From contig CAMOVS010000001.1 of NCBI GenBank assembly GCA_946627575.1, positions 1 through 28,849 on the forward strand: DNA of 28,849 nucleotides. The letters run 5' to 3'. This document shows positions 3,371 to 25,235 of the stretch, piece by piece (position 1 is the first letter of the stretch; each line of letters starts with the position of its first letter). The translations under genes were made by a program, and so were the position numbers. A model generated the notes under the pieces. The model saw nothing but the letters and a program-made list of their open reading frames with translations, was not told where the DNA came from and did not search any database. The stretch comes from an uncultured Lachnospiraceae bacterium (GTDB taxonomy: Bacteria; Bacillota; Clostridia; Lachnospirales; Lachnospiraceae).

Positions 3371-4726
3371 TCATCGAAGTCCTGAGATAAAGATAAAGAT
3401 GATCAATACCGGTAATACGAACTGAAAGTAGGGTTTGAGCCGGGAAGAGAACTTTATGCCTTTACCGGTGTTGCATTCGTTCAGATAATCGTCAAATCCC
3501 CATCCTGCTTTGGTGACACAAAATAGCAGGAAAACCAGAGATCCTGTCGGCAGCAGAAGGTTGCTGACGATGTAGTCCTCCATATCCAGTATGTTTTTGT
3601 TACCCATGAAGAGGACATTTTTCCAGACATTGAATCCCAATACGCAGGGCATGCTGCCCAGGAGAACGCTAACCAGATTAATACATACCGATTTCTTCCT
3701 GCTTATGCCAAAGGTGTCTGTCAGATAGGCGATCAGGTTCTCAAATACCGCGATTACCGTTGAGAAACTGGCGAAGGTCATAAAAAGGAAGAACATACTT
3801 CCCCAGATTCTGCCGCCGGCCATATTGACAAATACGTTAGGCAGAGTGACAAAGATCAGGGCCGGTCCCTGGTCCGGAGCTACACCGAAAGCGAAGCAGG
3901 CAGGGAATATGATCAGTCCGGCCATGATGGCTACAAAGGTATCCAGTATACAGATGGTTCCTGCTTCACTTGGAAGGGTATGGTCCCTGGACATATAACT
4001 TCCGAAGATCTCCATGGAGGCTATACCTATGCTAAGTGTAAAGAATGCCTGATTCATGGCTGCAGTTATTACTTTGTTGAGACCGATTTCACGTACCTTG
4101 TCTATATTGGGAACAAGGTAGAAGCTGAGTCCCTCTGATGCTCTTGGGAGCATCAGACTATGGACTGCCAGTATGATGATAAGTACCAGCAGAATGGACA
4201 TCATATAGGTACTGATCTTTTCGATACCGTTTTCCAGACCCTTGGCGCAGACCAGGAATCCTGCTATGACGGTTATGGCCATCCAGACACTCATTTCCAC
4301 CGGAGATGACTGCAACTGGTTGAAGACAGCTCCGATATCATCCGCTTCCATCCCCCTTGCAAAGGTCCCTGTGATGAATTTGAAGAAGTAGGCCAGCATC
4401 CATCCGGCTACCGTGGTGTAATAGACCATGAGCACAAAAGAGCCAAACAGGCAGATCCATCCGTGCAGGTGCCATTTGGTCCCGGGTTTTTCTAGAGTCT
4501 TGTAAGCCAGATAGGCGCTTTGCTTACTGGCTCTTCCCACAGACAGCTCCATGGTCAGAACCGGCAGTCCCATAATCACCAGAAAGAGAAGATAGAAAAA
4601 AACAAATATCCCTCCGCCATTTTCTCCTGCTACATATGGGAACCTCCATACATTACCAATACCTATGGCGCATCCTGCGCTTACAAGAATAAATCCTAAG
4701 CGGGATCCGAATCCCTCTCTTTGCAT
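3371..4726 (-). CDS. Sodium-dependent transporter, SNF/NSS family
   Basis: A 451-residue integral membrane protein that probably imports an amino acid together with Na+. The N-terminus FGSRLGFILVSAGCAIGIGNVWRFPY is split here for length: FGSRLGFIL, then SAGCAIGIGNVWRFPY, the TM1 signature of the neurotransmitter:sodium symporter family, followed by ENGGG in the TM1-TM2 turn. About 11-12 hydrophobic segments follow, as in bacterial LeuT/MhsT-type members. The ribosome site GAGGAG lies directly upstream of ATG. The small DUF6472-like gene follows 13 bases after the stop. The upstream gap (4727-4964), shared with a divergent AEC carrier, contains an 11-bp inverted repeat. Substrate unknown; tryptophan, tyrosine or branched residues are typical of the family. 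Confidence 0.92.
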   Translation of the reverse strand: MQREGFGSRLGFILVSAGCAIGIGNVWRFPYVAGENGGGIFVFFYLLFLVIMGLPVLTMELSVGRASKQSAYLAYKTLEKPGTKWHLHGWICLFGSFVLMVYYTTVAGWMLAYFFKFITGTFARGMEADDIGAVFNQLQSSPVEMSVWMAITVIAGFLVCAKGLENGIEKISTYMMSILLVLIIILAVHSLMLPRASEGLSFYLVPNIDKVREIGLNKVITAAMNQAFFTLSIGIASMEIFGSYMSRDHTLPSEAGTICILDTFVAIMAGLIIFPACFAFGVAPDQGPALIFVTLPNVFVNMAGGRIWGSMFFLFMTFASFSTVIAVFENLIAYLTDTFGISRKKSVCINLVSVLLGSMPCVLGFNVWKNVLFMGNKNILDMEDYIVSNLLLPTGSLVFLLFCVTKAGWGFDDYLNECNTGKGIKFSSRLKPYFQFVLPVLIIFIFISGLR

Positions 4727-15572: not shown

Positions 15573-17558
15573 TTACCGGATCTCATCCTCATCTACATCG
15601 TATGTGGTTACCGATGTTGAATCCTCAAAAGAATATTTACTGGTCTCCTTCCTCTTATGACCTGCGCTGTCGTATTCATATTGTCTCCAGGATGATACAC
15701 TGCCGTCCGCATCATAAGATGTCTCTTTTATCTCATTGTCATATTGATCAAACTCTGATTCGGTCCAATCTTTCAGTTTATTAGTATCATAATATGATCT
15801 TTTTACTATGTTGCCATGATCATCATAGGTATATTCAAGTCGGCTTTCCAGCTTTCTATTCTCACCATATGAGTAATATCCTGCATACCTTCCTTCGTTA
15901 TTATACTTTGTCTCTTCTGCTGATAAGACTTTTCCTGAAGCATCATAATTTGTTGTTTCTACTTTATGTCCTTCGGAATCATATGCTGATTCTTCTCTTT
16001 CAAGCAGCTTGTCCTGCTTGTCATACTTTTCTTCTGCAATTTGCTGGTATTTATCATTATATTTATAGATAGAATATCCTTCAACTTCTCCGGACTCCGT
16101 ATAATTAGTTTCTTTCGTTATCGTTGTTCCTCTTATGGTTGAGTATCCATTATTATACTTGTAAGGCTCATACTCTGAGACACTCTTGATATGTTTTCCT
16201 TCATCATAGTAACTGGTGCTTTTCAGTTCAAAGCCTTCCGGACTATTCTCGGATACATCATACCAGGACAATTCACCCTTAAAATAGTGAGCGGAGACAT
16301 TACAGCATCCATATTCATCATACTCTTTATATTCTTCTATGACATCTTTGGAATTACGTTCCGTCTTTTTATATATAAAGTCTCCTCTGAACTCATAGGT
16401 GGTTTTCTTATAGACGGTACCATCATCGATGGCTGTCTCACCTTTTGTTCTGTGTCCCTGTTTGTCGTATTCATAGGATTCCACAGAGCTTACCGTATTA
16501 TCAAAATGATAGTTGGTCTTCTTAATAAGACAGGCTTTGTCATCATATTCATAGGTGCTGATTGTATGGATGTCATCCCCTTTGTATTCAGTACTTTTCA
16601 CAAGCCAGCCCCGGTCGTCATATTCTTCCAGGCCTTTTGATAAATAAGGATCGTCAACCCATTCGTATTCTTCTCTTGTCATTACGCCCTGATCATTGTA
16701 TTCGTATTCGTAGCAATAATCAATCTGTCCGTCTTTATCGTAGGTCTCGTATCTTGATTCATTCTCCCTGTCATCATACCATGAGCAGGATTTCTTATGA
16801 CCATCTTGTGCAAAGGAGGCAGCCTTTGTTTTATTGCCTTCGGAGTCATATTCAATCTCTTGATATCCGGCAGGGCTGTCATCTGCCTCAAAACAGTTCC
16901 ACTTTACTGCATTTCCCTTCGAATCCAGTTCCGCCACCTTGTAATCTTCCAGATTATGATCCAGGTCATAGTAAGACCACCTGATAATATTGCCCTGGGC
17001 ATCCTGCTCTGTTTCTCCACTGTTTTTTACCTTGCCGTTCCCATAGTAGGAGACATATTTTGTTTCTGTCCCATTATCATCATATGTATAATCCGTCCAT
17101 CCTTTGAATGACCCTTCAGGAGTCCAGGAACTGCTCTTAATTAGATTTCCATCCTGGTCGTACTTCTCTTCCCTTTTGCTATAATCATCCACCTTGATAA
17201 TAGTTTTTCCCTTTTTATCAGCGTTAGCTTTGGTTTTCGCTGCTTTCTCCTGGGATTTACCCGCTTTGCCGGAAGAGAGATTCCCATAATTGCGGTATAG
17301 CAGAATTCCGCCAATTATAACGATAAACACTGCAAGAGCTGCCGCTATACCCAGCAGAAAGCTTTTTGCCGCAATACCTTCCTTACCGGGCTTTATCTGA
17401 CTGCTCTCTTCCCTGTATGGCCCATTCTGATAGGGAGAATGATCCTGCTCCGGGTAAGGCTGGCCGGAAAGATCAATCCCCTGCCACTGATCACGGTTAT
17501 TCTTCTTCCCTTCGGGCTTCCCGTCCCTCGAACGGTGATCTCTATAATCTGCTTGCAT
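15573..17558 (-). CDS. Membrane-anchored extracytoplasmic YD/RHS-like repeat protein
   Basis: A 661-residue protein. The first 65 residues are hydrophilic and probably cytoplasmic (rich in Gln, Asn, Arg, Pro). One membrane helix follows (about 66-88, start LLGIAAALAVFIVIIGG). After a Lys/Ala linker, residues 115-661 are an array of roughly two dozen degenerate repeats of about 20-25 residues, with the pattern Y-D-x-x-G-x-x-x-K-x-x-x-Y-D-x-x-G. Examples are YDSEGNKTKAASF and YDDHGNIVKRSYYD. They resemble YD/RHS and related Tyr-rich beta repeats that form wound beta structures outside the cell. There is no sorting signal or toxin domain at the end. Its ribosome site GAGGAG overlaps the stop of the upstream SCP2 gene, 13 bases away. 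Binding partner unknown. Confidence 0.8.
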   Translation of the reverse strand: MQADYRDHRSRDGKPEGKKNNRDQWQGIDLSGQPYPEQDHSPYQNGPYREESSQIKPGKEGIAAKSFLLGIAAALAVFIVIIGGILLYRNYGNLSSGKAGKSQEKAAKTKANADKKGKTIIKVDDYSKREEKYDQDGNLIKSSSWTPEGSFKGWTDYTYDDNGTETKYVSYYGNGKVKNSGETEQDAQGNIIRWSYYDLDHNLEDYKVAELDSKGNAVKWNCFEADDSPAGYQEIEYDSEGNKTKAASFAQDGHKKSCSWYDDRENESRYETYDKDGQIDYCYEYEYNDQGVMTREEYEWVDDPYLSKGLEEYDDRGWLVKSTEYKGDDIHTISTYEYDDKACLIKKTNYHFDNTVSSVESYEYDKQGHRTKGETAIDDGTVYKKTTYEFRGDFIYKKTERNSKDVIEEYKEYDEYGCCNVSAHYFKGELSWYDVSENSPEGFELKSTSYYDEGKHIKSVSEYEPYKYNNGYSTIRGTTITKETNYTESGEVEGYSIYKYNDKYQQIAEEKYDKQDKLLEREESAYDSEGHKVETTNYDASGKVLSAEETKYNNEGRYAGYYSYGENRKLESRLEYTYDDHGNIVKRSYYDTNKLKDWTESEFDQYDNEIKETSYDADGSVSSWRQYEYDSAGHKRKETSKYSFEDSTSVTTYDVDEDEIR

Positions 17559-17571
17559 GTACTATTCTCCT

Positions 17572-18366
17572 CTATTCTTCGGAATGCTTTTTCCTGCGTC
17601 CCACTTTCTTCTTTACCGAATCAGCTACTTCTCCTGCCTTCCCCTTGGCACTTCCGGCGGCTTCTTCCACCTTTCCTTTGGCTGAGCCGACCGCTTCCCC
17701 GGCTTTCTTTTTTACGGTTCCTGCTGCCTTCCCGGCTTTATCCTTTGCAGCGCCGGCGGCTTCCTCCACCTTTTCTTTGGCCGCTCCGGCGGCTTCTCCT
17801 GCCTTCTTTTTCACGGTTCCTGCCGCCTCGCCGGCTTTTTCCCTGGCAGCCCCGGCGGCTTCCTCCACCTTTTCTTTGGCCGCTCCGGCGGCTTCTCCTG
17901 CCTTCTTTTTCACGGTTCCTGCTGCCTTGCCGGCGGTTTTCTTGACAGCGTCTATATGAGGGTGACTCTTTTTCTTAGAATCAGATGCCAAATCGATATC
18001 GCTAGATGAAAGGTCTTCCTCTGCAGAAGCCTTTTCCTCTTCATCCCCAGCTTTCTTCATAGACAGATCTCTTAGGATAACAACTCTGGAAGCATCCCCT
18101 TCAACGCAGAGGTCTCCATATGTACAGGGATCAATCCTGCCGGCAGCAATACCCAGCAAAGTCTCTGCATCTGTACTTATAATGGTGTCTCTGTCATAAT
18201 ATTCAAAAGGTTCGATATGGATCTTTCCGTCATCGATCTCCATATAAAGGGCTCCATGCCCCTCCCCCCATATATTGAACTGAATGGCCACGTGCTCCTC
18301 TATGGCAGAAGCATCCTTGCTCTCATATACCTGGCGAAGTCTGTTCACTATTTGCTCATACATCAT
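17572..18366 (-). CDS. SCP2-like domain fused to ten 11-residue LEA/H1-like repeats
   Basis: A 264-residue protein. ATG at 18366 is chosen because AGGAGG (18375-18380) lies eight bases upstream; a GTG three codons earlier overlaps it. Residues 1-102 look like a sterol-carrier-protein-2 fold (FNIWGEGHGALYMEI, D-G-K-I-H-I-E-P, TIISTDAETLLGIAAGRIDP), a small lipid-binding domain. Then come an acidic Ser/Glu linker (105-130) and ten 11-residue repeats (142-251) such as KKKAGEAAGAA, KEKVEEAAGAA and KDKAGKAAGTV, ending in a basic tail KKKVGRRKKHSEE. The repeats would form a long amphipathic helix, as in LEA proteins or histone H1-like tails. It sits between the permease-GGDEF gene and the YD protein in one operon. 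No signal peptide, so it is cytoplasmic or membrane-surface bound. Confidence 0.8.
   Translation of the reverse strand: MMYEQIVNRLRQVYESKDASAIEEHVAIQFNIWGEGHGALYMEIDDGKIHIEPFEYYDRDTIISTDAETLLGIAAGRIDPCTYGDLCVEGDASRVVILRDLSMKKAGDEEEKASAEEDLSSSDIDLASDSKKKSHPHIDAVKKTAGKAAGTVKKKAGEAAGAAKEKVEEAAGAAREKAGEAAGTVKKKAGEAAGAAKEKVEEAAGAAKDKAGKAAGTVKKKAGEAVGSAKGKVEEAAGSAKGKAGEVADSVKKKVGRRKKHSEE
17614..17910 (-). repeat. Three 99-bp tandem repeats encoding the 11-mer triplets
   Basis: The 11-codon units are arranged as three 33-residue super-repeats (17812-17910, 17713-17811, 17614-17712). Each runs K-K-K-A-G-E-A-A/V-G-A/S-A, then K-x-K-V-E-E-A-A-G-A/S-A, then x-x-K-A-G-x-x-A-x-x-V. An older unit lies just before (17911-17943). 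The first two are nearly identical and the third is diverged, suggesting duplication by slippage or recombination. Confidence 0.85.
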
Positions 18367-18424
18367 ATGGTCCACCTCCTGACCTGTACTTCAGGTTATC
18401 TATCTATTATTTTCCTGATACTGC

Positions 18425-20656
18425 TTATCCCCGCGTCCGGGCTCCCATCCCCTTCAGCTCCTGCTTCCTGTCATACATAAGGCGGTCGGCCCTCTCAAAG
18501 ACCTGATGAAGACTTTCATCATGATCCGGATCAAATTCCGCCATACCACTCGCGATAACGACCTGATTCAGGCTAATATTGTCTTCAACCTGTTGGTTCA
18601 GCCTATCAAGCAAGCTATATCGATTCTCAAGATCTCGTCCCTCAAGCAGAACGACAAACTCGTCACCACCGATTCGGAAGACAGGACTATGCATGTAAAT
18701 CTCGCATATTAGTCTCCCGGCTGACTTTATGTACTCGTCTCCCGCTTTATGGCCCAGGGTATCATTAATATGCTTTAATCCGTTGACATCGCAGATCAAT
18801 AGACCGAAGAATTCCTGTTTTCCTTCTTTTATAGCCCGGTTCAGATACAATTCCTGCTCGGCATAGGCGTGCTTGCTCTTGACGCCGGTCAAAGGATCCT
18901 TGTTGGCCATCTCCCGAACGCTGCCCAGCTCCTTCTCACTCTCTCTTGCTCTCCGGCTCATAAGAGAATAGTTGTTCAGGAGAACCGCCAGAGACAGTCC
19001 CATCAGGCTGATCACCACCAGGATGCTCTTGGCATTGGTGCTGCGGACCACCGCCAGTTCCTTCATGATGATATCATCAGCCCCGGTGCTGACACCCAGA
19101 GAATGATAGTATTTATTGATCTCATCCATGGCTTTTGTAGCCGCATTCATATTGTTCTGGCTCATCCAGACCAAAGCCACGAAAAGGACAAGGGACAAAA
19201 GCCCGATCCAGACAATGATGGAATAACCGAACTTGCCTTCTTCATCCCTTCTCAGGATCAGACGGAAATAGAAGAAGCCCAGTATGGCCCAGATGACAAA
19301 GAGGAAGTAGGTCTCTGTTTCTATGGATCCGCTGGTAAAAAGATTAGGTACTAAAATATAAGCACCAAAGGCGATCATGAAAATAAGGCCGGCAAGACCG
19401 GTTGTTTTCTCCACCTTATCCCCACGGAAATCCGCTGTTTTCCATGCACATGCCGAAACAAATCCATAGATAATCGTGGCGCCGATGGTCGTCACATCCA
19501 CGATCCAGCCGATGGCTGTTCTCCCTACAAATGGAATCAATATGGATATTGCCAGGATCATGTAAACCGCTTTGCCGGGAATACCCTTTTTATTCAGGTC
19601 TGCGCAGCGGGCCGGCAGGATCCGGTCTCTTGCCAGGGAGTAAAAAAGTCTGCTCAAGGCCAGAATATTACCGATCAGGCTGGTGAGAATCAGGCAGAGC
19701 AGGACCGCCATCAGCAGGGTTACTCCTCCATTTCCCATATAATGGCGGGCTGCATAGAAAGCAGGAAGGCCTTCTATCCCTGACAGGTTGCCCCTGTCAT
19801 GTATGTACTCCAGCCAGTTGTTGTACTGGGGCGGATATGCCGTTACGGAAAGGAGAGTAACAGAGATGTAAAGGAGACTTGCCACGATGACTGCTGCCAC
19901 AAGAATCCGAAAAGCCTTTTTCCGATGAAAGGAGAACTCCTCCGTCGCATGGGATATATTCTCGAATCCGATGAAGGCCCATGGTGAGATGCAGGCGATT
20001 CTAACGATCTGAGCCAGGGCGGAATCATCCGGTACATAGGCCGGTGAAAAGGCAGAAGCAGCAGGAATATCAAGCCTCAGCATAGCCACAACAAAACATA
20101 TTGCGATGCCCAGGCAGATAATGGCTGCCATCCCGATCATCATATAGGCCAGGCACTTCTTGAGGAAGATACATGCCAGCCCTGCGAGGGCAAGAGCGGC
20201 AGCAGACAAAAGAAACTCTCCAAAATATACCCTATAGCCAAACAGGGTATACATATAGCCAAACTCAAAATAATTGCCGATAAAATATCGGGCAAAAAGA
20301 GGAAGAGAAGTGACATTGGCCCAAAGAATGGCCAAATAGGTCAGCGCTAAAAACCAGGCCGTCAGAAATCCATGATCATAGCCAAAGGTATCTCTGGAAT
20401 AAGCATAGGCCCCCCCTGCTTCCGGTATACAGCTCATCATATAATAATAGTTTCGGCTGATGACAAGCATGATGATTGTTCCGATCACCATACCAAGAAC
20501 CGATCCCATGGGTCCGGCCTGGGCCAGGTAAGTACTGCCGGTAACCACCAAGGATCCCCAGCCGATGCTTGTACCCAGAGCCAGAGCCCAGGCCGCGGCC
20601 GGCGATAAATAAGGACTGAGGCCCTGTTTATTTATATTAGAATCCATAGTCACCAT
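18425..20656 (-). CDS. APC-family amino-acid permease fused to a diguanylate cyclase (GGDEF) domain
   Basis: A 743-residue membrane protein. Residues 15-470 are a complete APC/LeuT-fold transporter of about 12 helices, with the broken TM1 motif GTSIGWGS (28-35) and IPEAGGAYAYSRD (77-89). Two more helices follow (478-498 and 544-562) and enclose an extracytoplasmic loop of about 45 residues. A short coiled segment then leads to a GGDEF domain (586-743): DPLTGVKSK, metal Asp623 in CDVNGLK, NDTLGHKAGDEY, and an intact GGDEF at 663-667. The RxxD inhibitory site is replaced by YMHS. It should make c-di-GMP in the cytoplasm, perhaps gated by transport or ligand binding. GGAAGGA precedes the ATG. 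First gene of a three-gene operon. The coupling of the halves is inferred. Confidence 0.9.
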   Translation of the reverse strand: MVTMDSNINKQGLSPYLSPAAAWALALGTSIGWGSLVVTGSTYLAQAGPMGSVLGMVIGTIIMLVISRNYYYMMSCIPEAGGAYAYSRDTFGYDHGFLTAWFLALTYLAILWANVTSLPLFARYFIGNYFEFGYMYTLFGYRVYFGEFLLSAAALALAGLACIFLKKCLAYMMIGMAAIICLGIAICFVVAMLRLDIPAASAFSPAYVPDDSALAQIVRIACISPWAFIGFENISHATEEFSFHRKKAFRILVAAVIVASLLYISVTLLSVTAYPPQYNNWLEYIHDRGNLSGIEGLPAFYAARHYMGNGGVTLLMAVLLCLILTSLIGNILALSRLFYSLARDRILPARCADLNKKGIPGKAVYMILAISILIPFVGRTAIGWIVDVTTIGATIIYGFVSACAWKTADFRGDKVEKTTGLAGLIFMIAFGAYILVPNLFTSGSIETETYFLFVIWAILGFFYFRLILRRDEEGKFGYSIIVWIGLLSLVLFVALVWMSQNNMNAATKAMDEINKYYHSLGVSTGADDIIMKELAVVRSTNAKSILVVISLMGLSLAVLLNNYSLMSRRARESEKELGSVREMANKDPLTGVKSKHAYAEQELYLNRAIKEGKQEFFGLLICDVNGLKHINDTLGHKAGDEYIKSAGRLICEIYMHSPVFRIGGDEFVVLLEGRDLENRYSLLDRLNQQVEDNISLNQVVIASGMAEFDPDHDESLHQVFERADRLMYDRKQELKGMGARTRG

Positions 20657-20754: not shown

Positions 20755-20783
20755 ATTATACCACATGCAAACTTCTATGCCAA
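20755..20783 (-). promoter_or_regulatory. Sigma-A promoter of the permease-GGDEF operon
   Basis: On the minus strand TTGGCA (20783-20778), a 17-base spacer and perfect TATAAT (20760-20755), preceded by TGG as an extended -10. The start ATG is about 95 bases downstream. A small palindrome ATTCGC-A-GCGAAT at 20675-20687 lies in the leader next to the ribosome site. Confidence 0.8.
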
Positions 20784-20806
20784 AACTCTTTCAGTTTATT
20801 CTGTGC

Positions 20807-20849
20807 AAATAAAGATAAACGACAGAGCCTTCCCTCAGGAAACACTCTG
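20807..20849 (-). terminator. Weak terminator after the ABC importer operon
   Basis: On the minus strand CAGAG (20849-20845) pairs with CTCTG, with an inner TTCC/GGAA pairing around a small loop (20823-20849), then a T-rich stretch interrupted by A and G. It lies about 20 bases after the ATPase stop. Imperfect. Confidence 0.4.
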
Positions 20850-20870
20850 CCGCCATCAAAGTCTATTCTT

Positions 20871-23903: not shown

Positions 23904-25235
23904 TTATCGGTCAATATCTCTGATAACCGGAAGCATTCCGACCCTTAATTTATCATTCTCAAAGGCTATGCCCAGCTCGTCCCTGATCAGCAGCCCTCTT
24001 TTAACAAAGGCTTCCTTGAGCTTCAGCGGGAAATAACGGTTGAAGCTTCTCTGGGTCAGGCTCACCGAGGTCTCCTTGCCCTGGGTCAGCAGGAAGATAC
24101 AGGGACAGTGGAAGATGTCCGGTCCATACATATCGGCCGATTCCACCAGCTGATCCATATCCGGGCCCAAGCCCAGTCTCCCAAGGTTGGTGGTAAAATA
24201 TGTCACATGAAGATCGGGGAGATTCCAGACATGATTCCTCAGCATGCGGAGTCCTTCCTCCACAGACAGCGGGAAAGTAAGCAGATCTGCCAGACTCCTC
24301 TTGCTCTCCTCGATCACCCCGTCAAAATTATCCCTGGTCAGCTGAGGCTCTTTGAATTCTTTCTGAATAATATGGGAAGCATCCCGATCGGAAAGGGCAA
24401 ACATGGCTTCCGGATAATAGATCCAGAAGAGCTCTCTCATATTCTGCAGGTAGCGGCTCTGATAATAAGGCCGAAGGTCAACGGCCCCCATGCCGGCGAT
24501 GGTCTTACCGCCGGTCTCATAGCTGTCATGAATAACCCTTGCAGCCAGAAGGTGGACGTAGGTGTCCACTGTGGTTCCTGTCTCGCGGGCCAGATCGCAC
24601 AATCTGTCAGTGTCCAAAGTATAATGGAAGATTCCGTAATGGCGGCAGTCATCGATCTCCCTGACCTTGTCCGGAATCTCATATATCTCTTTGTCCTCCC
24701 CTGCCTTAAAGGCATTGGGACAGGGTTCCGCCTCCGATTCAATCTCCAGAGGATCCGCCATCTCCGTAGAAACAGCCGCCACTTCCTCCGTGAGTATGCT
24801 CCCGTTATTCCGGATATCATAGCCGGCAAGGGTGAAATAATTATAAAGAAGGGACCGGGCAAACATCATATAACCCCGGCCGTCGCAGACGCCGTGGAAT
24901 ACGGAGATCCAGATCTTCTTTCCTTCATACATAACCCGGAAAAGAAAGCCCCTGGTATCTTCCGTCCTAAAGCAAACCGGATAGGGCTCATAGGCGTAGA
25001 CCTCAGCCTCCCGGCCGCTTTCCATCATATGTAGAAAACCCTGCTCATCCAGAACCGGCTGCCTCCTGAAATTAGGGAAACGCAGAAGGGTCTTATTCAG
25101 GGCTTTCTTCAATATCTCCCTCCGGACCCTGCAGTGCAAAGTAAGACGCAGAACAAGATTGCAGGTCTCATTCTCCGAAAAGAGATAATAAAATAGCTTA
25201 TCCGCATTATGAACCTGATAAAGTCTGCGCTCCAT
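23904..25235 (-). CDS. Condensation-domain / alcohol acetyltransferase-fold protein
   Basis: A 443-residue soluble protein with the CoA-dependent acyltransferase (CAT/NRPS condensation) fold. The active-site motif HxxxDG reads HGVCDG (114-119), so the catalytic His114 is kept. The N-terminal start (ADKLFYYL, then LTLHCRVRREILKKALNKTLLRFP in two segments) fits the acceptor-side half of the fold. The C-terminal half contains TYFTTNLGRLGLG, similar to the DFG-like latch region. Stand-alone members transfer acyl groups to alcohols, sugars or amines, or couple to peptide synthesis; none of the usual NRPS partners is nearby. It has its own sigma-A promoter (25347-25375) and a strong terminator, so it is a single-gene unit. 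Confidence 0.8.
   Translation of the reverse strand: MERRLYQVHNADKLFYYLFSENETCNLVLRLTLHCRVRREILKKALNKTLLRFPNFRRQPVLDEQGFLHMMESGREAEVYAYEPYPVCFRTEDTRGFLFRVMYEGKKIWISVFHGVCDGRGYMMFARSLLYNYFTLAGYDIRNNGSILTEEVAAVSTEMADPLEIESEAEPCPNAFKAGEDKEIYEIPDKVREIDDCRHYGIFHYTLDTDRLCDLARETGTTVDTYVHLLAARVIHDSYETGGKTIAGMGAVDLRPYYQSRYLQNMRELFWIYYPEAMFALSDRDASHIIQKEFKEPQLTRDNFDGVIEESKRSLADLLTFPLSVEEGLRMLRNHVWNLPDLHVTYFTTNLGRLGLGPDMDQLVESADMYGPDIFHCPCIFLLTQGKETSVSLTQRSFNRYFPLKLKEAFVKRGLLIRDELGIAFENDKLRVGMLPVIRDIDR

Follow-up and report, generated by a model that had tools for sequence, protein, structure and literature searches.

Transporters that front signalling domains are known from several bacterial families. 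Published examples include SLC5-STAC transporters that carry a kinase or diguanylate cyclase domain; the SLC5/STAC proteins (CbrA, CrbS, RpuS and diguanylate cyclases) place a complete transporter, of the LeuT type in CbrA, in front of the kinase or cyclase. In the ammonium sensor kinase Ks-Amt5, a transporter module, in this case a trimeric Amt transporter, is reported to have taken on a new role as sensor for the histidine kinase output fused to it (PMC5764959). The 5TMR/S-component receptors likewise reuse a transporter fold, with one type of sensor reported to carry kinase, GGDEF and EAL outputs (PMC11109136). Transporter folds acting as receptors are described as rare (PMC11109136, PMC13022988).

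The joining of a transporter to a cyclase is thus not new in principle, because SLC5-STAC diguanylate cyclases are in print. A search of the literature covering titles and the beginnings of abstracts, with most subscription journals outside its scope, found no description of a GGDEF fusion with an APC or amino-acid permease domain. Amt-GGDEF fusions are known as well, although none came up in the literature search. Here we analyse a gene of an uncultured Lachnospiraceae bacterium, contained in a stretch of 28,849 nt (hereafter, the window; GCA_946627575.1, contig CAMOVS010000001.1), that joins an APC permease to a GGDEF domain. As far as we have seen, its APC module, its hairpin linker, the range of outputs of its family and its partner gene are new.

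Results

Architecture of the fusion protein

The gene is a single intact open reading frame for 743 aa, with an ATG start and free of internal stops. Pfam identified AA_permease_2 at residues 19-441 (106.8 bits, cut-off 27) and GGDEF at residues 584-733 (85.3 bits, cut-off 23.8), and the protein runs from a 12-helix APC core through two extra helices, which flank a 44-residue extracytoplasmic hairpin, to the GGDEF domain. Its features, all on the minus strand, are as follows.

18425..20656, minus: whole gene, APC permease-GGDEF fusion (P0001), 743 aa (open reading frame and Pfam)
19247..20602, minus: APC / AA_permease_2 core, residues 19-470, 12 helices, LeuT fold
20549..20575, minus: TM1 unwound segment, residues 28-36 (GTSIGWGSL; alignment conservation)
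19958..19987, minus: TM6 unwound segment, residues 224-233 (SPWAFIGFEN; conservation, and model break at 228-230)
19157..19222, minus: TM13, extra helix, residues 479-500 (hydropathy; model helix 479-520)
19025..19156, minus: extracytoplasmic helical hairpin, residues ~501-544 (model)
18962..19024, minus: TM14, extra helix, residues 545-565 (hydropathy; model helix 526-584)
18908..18961, minus: cytoplasmic signalling helix, residues 566-583, running on from TM14 (single-chain model)
18458..18907, minus: GGDEF (diguanylate cyclase) domain, residues 584-733 (Pfam)
18656..18670, minus: GGDEF motif, residues 663-667

A single-chain AlphaFold2 model (mean pLDDT 92, pTM 0.81) has the LeuT fold with broken TM1 and TM6, the helix breaks lying at residues 31-33 and 228-230. 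Two long extra helices, 479-520 and 526-584, follow the core and lead into the GGDEF fold; the hairpin at ~501-544, for which hydropathy was also run, is modelled as helical at lower confidence (block pLDDT 67-87). Residues 566-583 likely form a coiled coil, a pairing that we infer from the single-chain model. When model residues 10-477 were compared with PDB structures, the APC-transporter fold and the helix breaks were the same, and a viral fold library matched the permease and the GGDEF domain separately. The GGDEF motif is intact, the I-site position reads YMHS in place of RxxD, and a cyclase lacking the RxxD site is not expected to be product-inhibited. These results bear out the initial annotation, made from the letters alone, of an APC/LeuT-fold transporter joined to an intact GGDEF domain without an RxxD inhibitory site through two extra helices and a loop of about 45 residues, the loop being the helical hairpin.

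The protein thus shares its fold and helix breaks with APC transporters (GkApcT, AdiC, ApcT, CATs), which, unlike it, carry no signalling output; lysine 191 of GkApcT is also missing here. Mammalian CATs have 14 helices, and therefore two extra helices alone are not unique to the fusion; the structural comparison, which covered residues 10-477, yielded no fold match to the hairpin. In contrast to the SLC5/STAC proteins, the module is APC (AA_permease_2) rather than SLC5, and the Pfam matches of the fusion at E 0.001 include AA_permease_2 and AA_permease but not SSF (PF00474, the SLC5 transporter domain). The same holds for 5TM-5TMR_LYT (PF07694), absent at the same threshold; the 5TMR/S-component receptors differ from the fusion in having the S-component fold of ECF transporters and not APC (PMC11109136). 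Between transporter and output, where SLC5/STAC proteins have the STAC domain, the linker here is modelled as a TM13-TM14 hairpin plus a single continuous helix, with no match in a general Pfam scan at E 0.001.

Occurrence in relatives

The source genome is fragmented (354 contigs, 70% complete), which leaves room for the view that assembly or a frameshift joined two genes. Among 61 genomes, its own included, co-linear fusions aligning from residue 6-9 to 742 occur in three of the same genus (G004, G012 and G015; 52, 48 and 47% identity, respectively). Those of G004 and G012 are of a longer GGDEF-REC-GGDEF2-EAL type and that of G015 has GGDEF only; a further genome, G013, holds a 68-residue piece at a contig end. 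Six of the 24 genus genomes match at E 1e-100, output-bearing fusions being found in five (G000, G004, G006, G012 and G015) and a permease without output in the sixth (G003). At E 1e-60, with output-free permeases counted in, 52 of 397 genomes of the family match. Across the phylum the count is 7 of 398 genomes at 1e-100; two of these, from another family, carry tandem fusion pairs with kinase-like outputs according to custom profiles (L157, L158, L163 and L164; weak in L157).

A scan of GTDB species genomes with the single protein as query gave no confirmed relative. Repeated with an alignment of eleven sensor modules, it matched at least 597 stretches, of which at least 579 encode relatives at E 1e-3, fusions and plain permeases together. 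The best 80 of these were kept, a sample that leans towards the window protein, and an output domain is in frame in 78 of them; the exceptions, L091 and L110, have broken frames. The records of these 80 loci are labelled as Lachnospiraceae, Erysipelotrichaceae, Coriobacteriia, Treponema, Anaerolineaceae/Chloroflexi and others, with 78 from MAGs or uncultured records and two from strains (AC2029 and AD3010).

A joining of two genes by assembly error or frameshift, which the initial annotation had named as a way to overturn the fusion, is rejected by the three same-genus, output-bearing, in-frame relatives and by the 78 of 80 scanned loci, including AC2029 and AD3010; we regard the chance of such an artefact as vanishingly small. 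Its other concern, absence from close relatives, holds in part: an output-bearing fusion is present in five of the 24 genus genomes and none was found at E 1e-100 in the other 19, many of which are incomplete.

A family with exchangeable outputs

We typed 131 APC reading frames, from the best 80 and other loci, with profiles built from Pfam-marked seeds, leaving out duplicate fetches (L002-L012, L113, L114) and permeases with BLAST E >1e-30 (e.g. L028, L029 and L032). The set comprised 52 GGDEF-only members, 32 GGDEF-REC-GGDEF2-EAL members and two more truncated at a contig end, 32 histidine kinase types, one EAL and 12 with no output by profile. These 12 resolved into two HD-GYP fusions (L048, L092), six permeases of 451-518 aa and four broken or cut pieces; in L103 and L122, typed as GGDEF only, PAS precedes GGDEF. 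Pfam analysis of 85 C-terminal parts of the 80 loci identified GGDEF in 77, receiver in 33, EAL in 30, histidine kinase in four, HD_5 in two and PAS in one. The same sensor part is joined to GGDEF, GGDEF-REC-GGDEF-EAL, HD-GYP or hybrid histidine kinase, and is the common element of a modular family. The initial annotation missed this wider family, of which the window protein is one output type. The outputs here, including GGDEF-REC-GGDEF-EAL and HD-GYP, are a further difference from SLC5/STAC proteins.

Two or three fusions lie side by side at L083, L111, L041 and L062. The genome of the window also holds a second family member, an APC-hybrid histidine kinase of 940 aa (G000:C20; L021 5974-8793, minus strand). 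In G004, a long APC-GGDEF-REC-GGDEF-EAL gene is broken by a stop (L018 3368-7680, minus). At another locus, the gene immediately upstream of an APC-hybrid histidine kinase encodes a chemotaxis receptor (sCache_3_3 + MCPsignal; L139 3167-4639, minus).

The catalytic signature is well kept across the GGDEF types. The GGDEF motif is present in 50 of 52 GGDEF-only members, the misses being L083, where the frame goes wrong, and L122, at a contig end, and in all 34 longer members (33 by script and L073 by reading). All 34 longer members also show the D..N.ND..GH..GD signature, as do 47 of 50 GGDEF-only ones, and none of 84 GGDEF-type members (83 examined by script, L073 by eye) has an RxxD I-site.

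A partner gene equivalent to the rest of the longer fusions

Of 47 GGDEF-only loci, 10 have a REC-GGDEF2-EAL gene adjoining the fusion on the same strand with a gap of <100 bp; it is not in the count for the other 37, including the window's own, and the neighbour counts omit some genes (e.g. those at L039, L046, L070 and L074) that were displaced by a longer antisense frame. The same neighbour occurs at none of 31 long fusions and at one of 32 histidine kinase fusions, and its kind makes up 16 of the 717 non-APC reading frames of these loci. Among annotated neighbours it alone stood out, most of the others being without annotation. The ten partners are 51-59% identical, over 481-709 residues, to the C-terminal parts of long fusions, so that the neighbour corresponds to what the longer fusion carries in its C-terminal half. 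As separate genes in some lineages and a single gene elsewhere, the two parts suggest a working pair of cyclase and phosphodiesterase under one sensor, with the receiver as a second input.

In the genome of the window, REC-GGDEF2-EAL occurs as two free homologues that share 61% and 57% identity with the L038 partner. GGDEF is above the cut-off in three reading frames, and PilZ gave no match at E 0.001 in this 70% complete genome.

Conservation of the sensor part

Conservation, expressed as the mean top-residue fraction in a 72-row alignment, was highest in the unwound segments of TM1 (0.84) and TM6 (0.92) and in residues 378-390 (0.95), compared with 0.65 for the APC core, 0.64 for GGDEF and 0.33 for the hairpin. 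In the 132-row tree alignment, G32, W33 and G34 are invariant in the rows with letters there (three are gapped), and G28 is invariant save in three histidine kinase rows. The linker measures 97-146 residues in 84 of 86 GGDEF-type members, 104 in the window protein, and only 78-79 in six histidine kinase fusions, whose hairpin is ~25 residues shorter. Because the TM1 and TM6 segments and residues 378-390 are best kept, the hairpin least, and the linker is shorter in histidine kinase fusions, the permease core appears the likelier sensor, although its conservation could equally reflect conserved transport.

At the position of GkApcT lysine 191, in the Na2 site of proton-coupled APC transporters, none of the 132 rows, output-free relatives included, has lysine. 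Phe occupies it in 77 of 88 c-di-GMP rows, and Leu in 24 of 32 kinase and 8 of 11 output-free rows; the window protein has Ile. We therefore rejected loss of this lysine as a mark of receptors, since output-free relatives are also without it.

Phylogeny

A quick tree of 132 permease cores was built with L030 and L143 as outgroup and without bootstraps; 46 of its 129 inner branches are open. It left out L091, L018, L110 and L134 (broken or cut), L135 (place of L148) and hits spanning <330 query residues, and seven permeases were added by hand (L143 and L148-L153). A branch with 99% SH-aLRT keeps all 120 output-bearing rows together, output-free permeases lying outside. Histidine kinase fusions branch first, and the c-di-GMP outputs form, together with two kinase rows, a 90-row group with 100% support, in which L130 is basal and L016 lies inside. 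L016 combines a kinase output with a TM1 like those of the c-di-GMP clade (T29, T39), the pattern expected from an output swap. The output labels need 13 changes on the tree, compared with 68.7 when shuffled. Three Treponema rows form one starred group, as do two Chloroflexi rows.

The closest output-free permeases, L022, L148 and L153 (466-471 aa), have nothing beyond TM12, and the hairpin therefore seems to accompany the outputs.

Genomic surroundings

The fusion gene follows, on the same strand, amino-acid-type ABC importer genes encoding binding protein, permease and ATPase, and starts ~215 bp downstream of the ATPase gene. Two features occupy the intervening region.

20806..20853, minus: terminator-like hairpin carrying a U-rich tail, in the gap from the ABC ATPase gene to the fusion gene
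20755..20783, minus: promoter-like site TTGGCA-17-TATAAT with TG before the -10 (extended -10), upstream of the fusion gene, 11 of 12 positions

In a 91-nt stretch of this gap the hairpin stability has a z of -3.55, none of 200 shuffles being equally stable, and a terminator pattern scan did not pick up the U-tailed hairpin at 20806..20853. The promoter-like site is a consensus match only, in a region with 37 such sites as compared with 17.1 in shuffles. Since the stable U-tailed hairpin and the promoter-like site separate it from the ATPase gene, the fusion gene probably has its own transcript. The importer does lie directly upstream, as first annotated, but neither a shared operon nor a link to the importer is supported. 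In neighbour clustering, the ATPase of the window was grouped with proteins of seven other loci. Seven grouped proteins from six loci were inspected: those at L015 and L133, directly upstream of a fusion, and that at L111, an opposite-strand neighbour, are exporter-like (ABC_membrane + ABC_tran), the two upstream ones thus not being binding-protein importers, and the remaining ones are ABC ATPases that do not adjoin a fusion.

About 50 bp downstream of the fusion lies a gene for 267 aa (17572-18375, minus) with SCP2, just above cut-off, and coiled matches. Further downstream on the same strand, a 661-aa protein (15573-17558, minus) has weak DUF2963/RHS repeat matches. Elsewhere in the window, a 443-aa reading frame (23904-25235, minus) has no Pfam or NCBIfam match at E 0.001, and a sodium:neurotransmitter symporter family protein (3371-4726, minus) is another LeuT-fold transporter. 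Rfam identified no element in the window at gathering thresholds.

Gene contexts of output-free relatives and other APC fusions

The output-free permease L148 ends a gene group in which (2S)-3-sulfopropanediol dehydratase scores 1543 bits (cut-off 1000) and the enzyme that activates it 571 (cut-off 500), and L153 is near SSS and BCCT transporter genes; the context of L022 gave no useful ligand clue. These two differing contexts, sulfopropanediol genes for L148 and SSS/BCCT transporter genes for L153, hint at a ligand class that may lie outside the amino acids. In G261, the group comprises genes for the dehydratase, its activating enzyme and an Fe-ADH, followed by the family-related APC transporter (L166 4008-8345 and L148 3365-5964), which is a candidate carrier for the sulfopropanediol pathway.

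At the weak end of the family search there were twelve long-frame hits of 726-989 residues, five of which were opened. We set the twelve apart from the family; L143, the one of them placed in the tree, falls outside. L143, L144, L145 and L146, in four genomes of the same family (G083, G290, G286 and G138), are APC fusions of ~880-960 aa whose C-terminal half reads, by eye, like iron alcohol dehydrogenase; L147 (G426; 154-2280, minus) is a 709-aa APC permease with, again by eye, a C-terminal look of cytidylate-kinase-type P-loop proteins.

Discussion

Our best reading of the fusion, drawn from sequence and predicted structure, is a receptor or transceptor. On balance we favour a membrane receptor of a modular family, in which a repurposed APC permease would bind a small solute and set the activity of the cyclase. 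The APC-type permease, with its LeuT fold, would have been turned into a sensor, holding the solute in a central site between the unwound TM1 and TM6. A conformational change of the permease would then pass via TM12-TM13, the hairpin and TM14 into the continuous helix, which would set how two GGDEF domains meet and so alter c-di-GMP synthesis, whereas removal of c-di-GMP would fall to partner EAL proteins. In this scheme we infer ligand gating, dimerisation, the side of sensing and catalysis, and the ligand need not be an amino acid. Against this reading, CbrA is reported to transport still, with activities not significantly affected by its substrate (PMC7096432), and thus an attached transporter need not gate the output.

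Alternatively, the protein could be a true transceptor, a working transporter in which flux or the transport cycle, and not mere binding, drives the cyclase. The complete 12-helix core and the conservation of both unwound segments are compatible with this, and CbrA, which combines an SLC5 domain with a histidine kinase, is reported to transport histidine (PMC7096432). We nevertheless consider it rather unlikely: the coupling lysine is absent, though it is absent in output-free relatives too, and Ks-Amt5, a repurposed transporter with a kinase, is described as having lost transport (PMC5764959).

Improbable, in our judgement, is an arrangement in which the hairpin is the sensor, or the GGDEF domain a c-di-GMP receptor that controls transport, with the permease as anchor or regulated target. 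Such a role would agree with the similar linker length (97-146 residues) of 84 of 86 GGDEF-type members and with the completeness of the permease core, but of the inner parts the hairpin is conserved least (0.33), the linker shrinks from the 104 residues found here to 78-79 in six histidine kinase fusions, 84 GGDEF-type members keep the catalytic motif and are without I-site, and kinase and HD-GYP outputs take the same place.

As to the history of the receptor family, we tentatively put forward, as a possible but somewhat doubtful course of events, a single origin from a transporter, with a kinase output first and c-di-GMP outputs later. The family would then have spread, as a general chemosensor, among anaerobes of the gut and rumen belonging to several phyla, transport being lost, and its ligands may be charged compounds other than amino acids, such as sulfonates or betaines.

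With one APC core, changing outputs and surviving output-free relatives, the step from transport to sensing becomes testable by swaps and mutation, and the family could also point to a nutrient that feeds into the c-di-GMP signalling of anaerobes living in gut and rumen.
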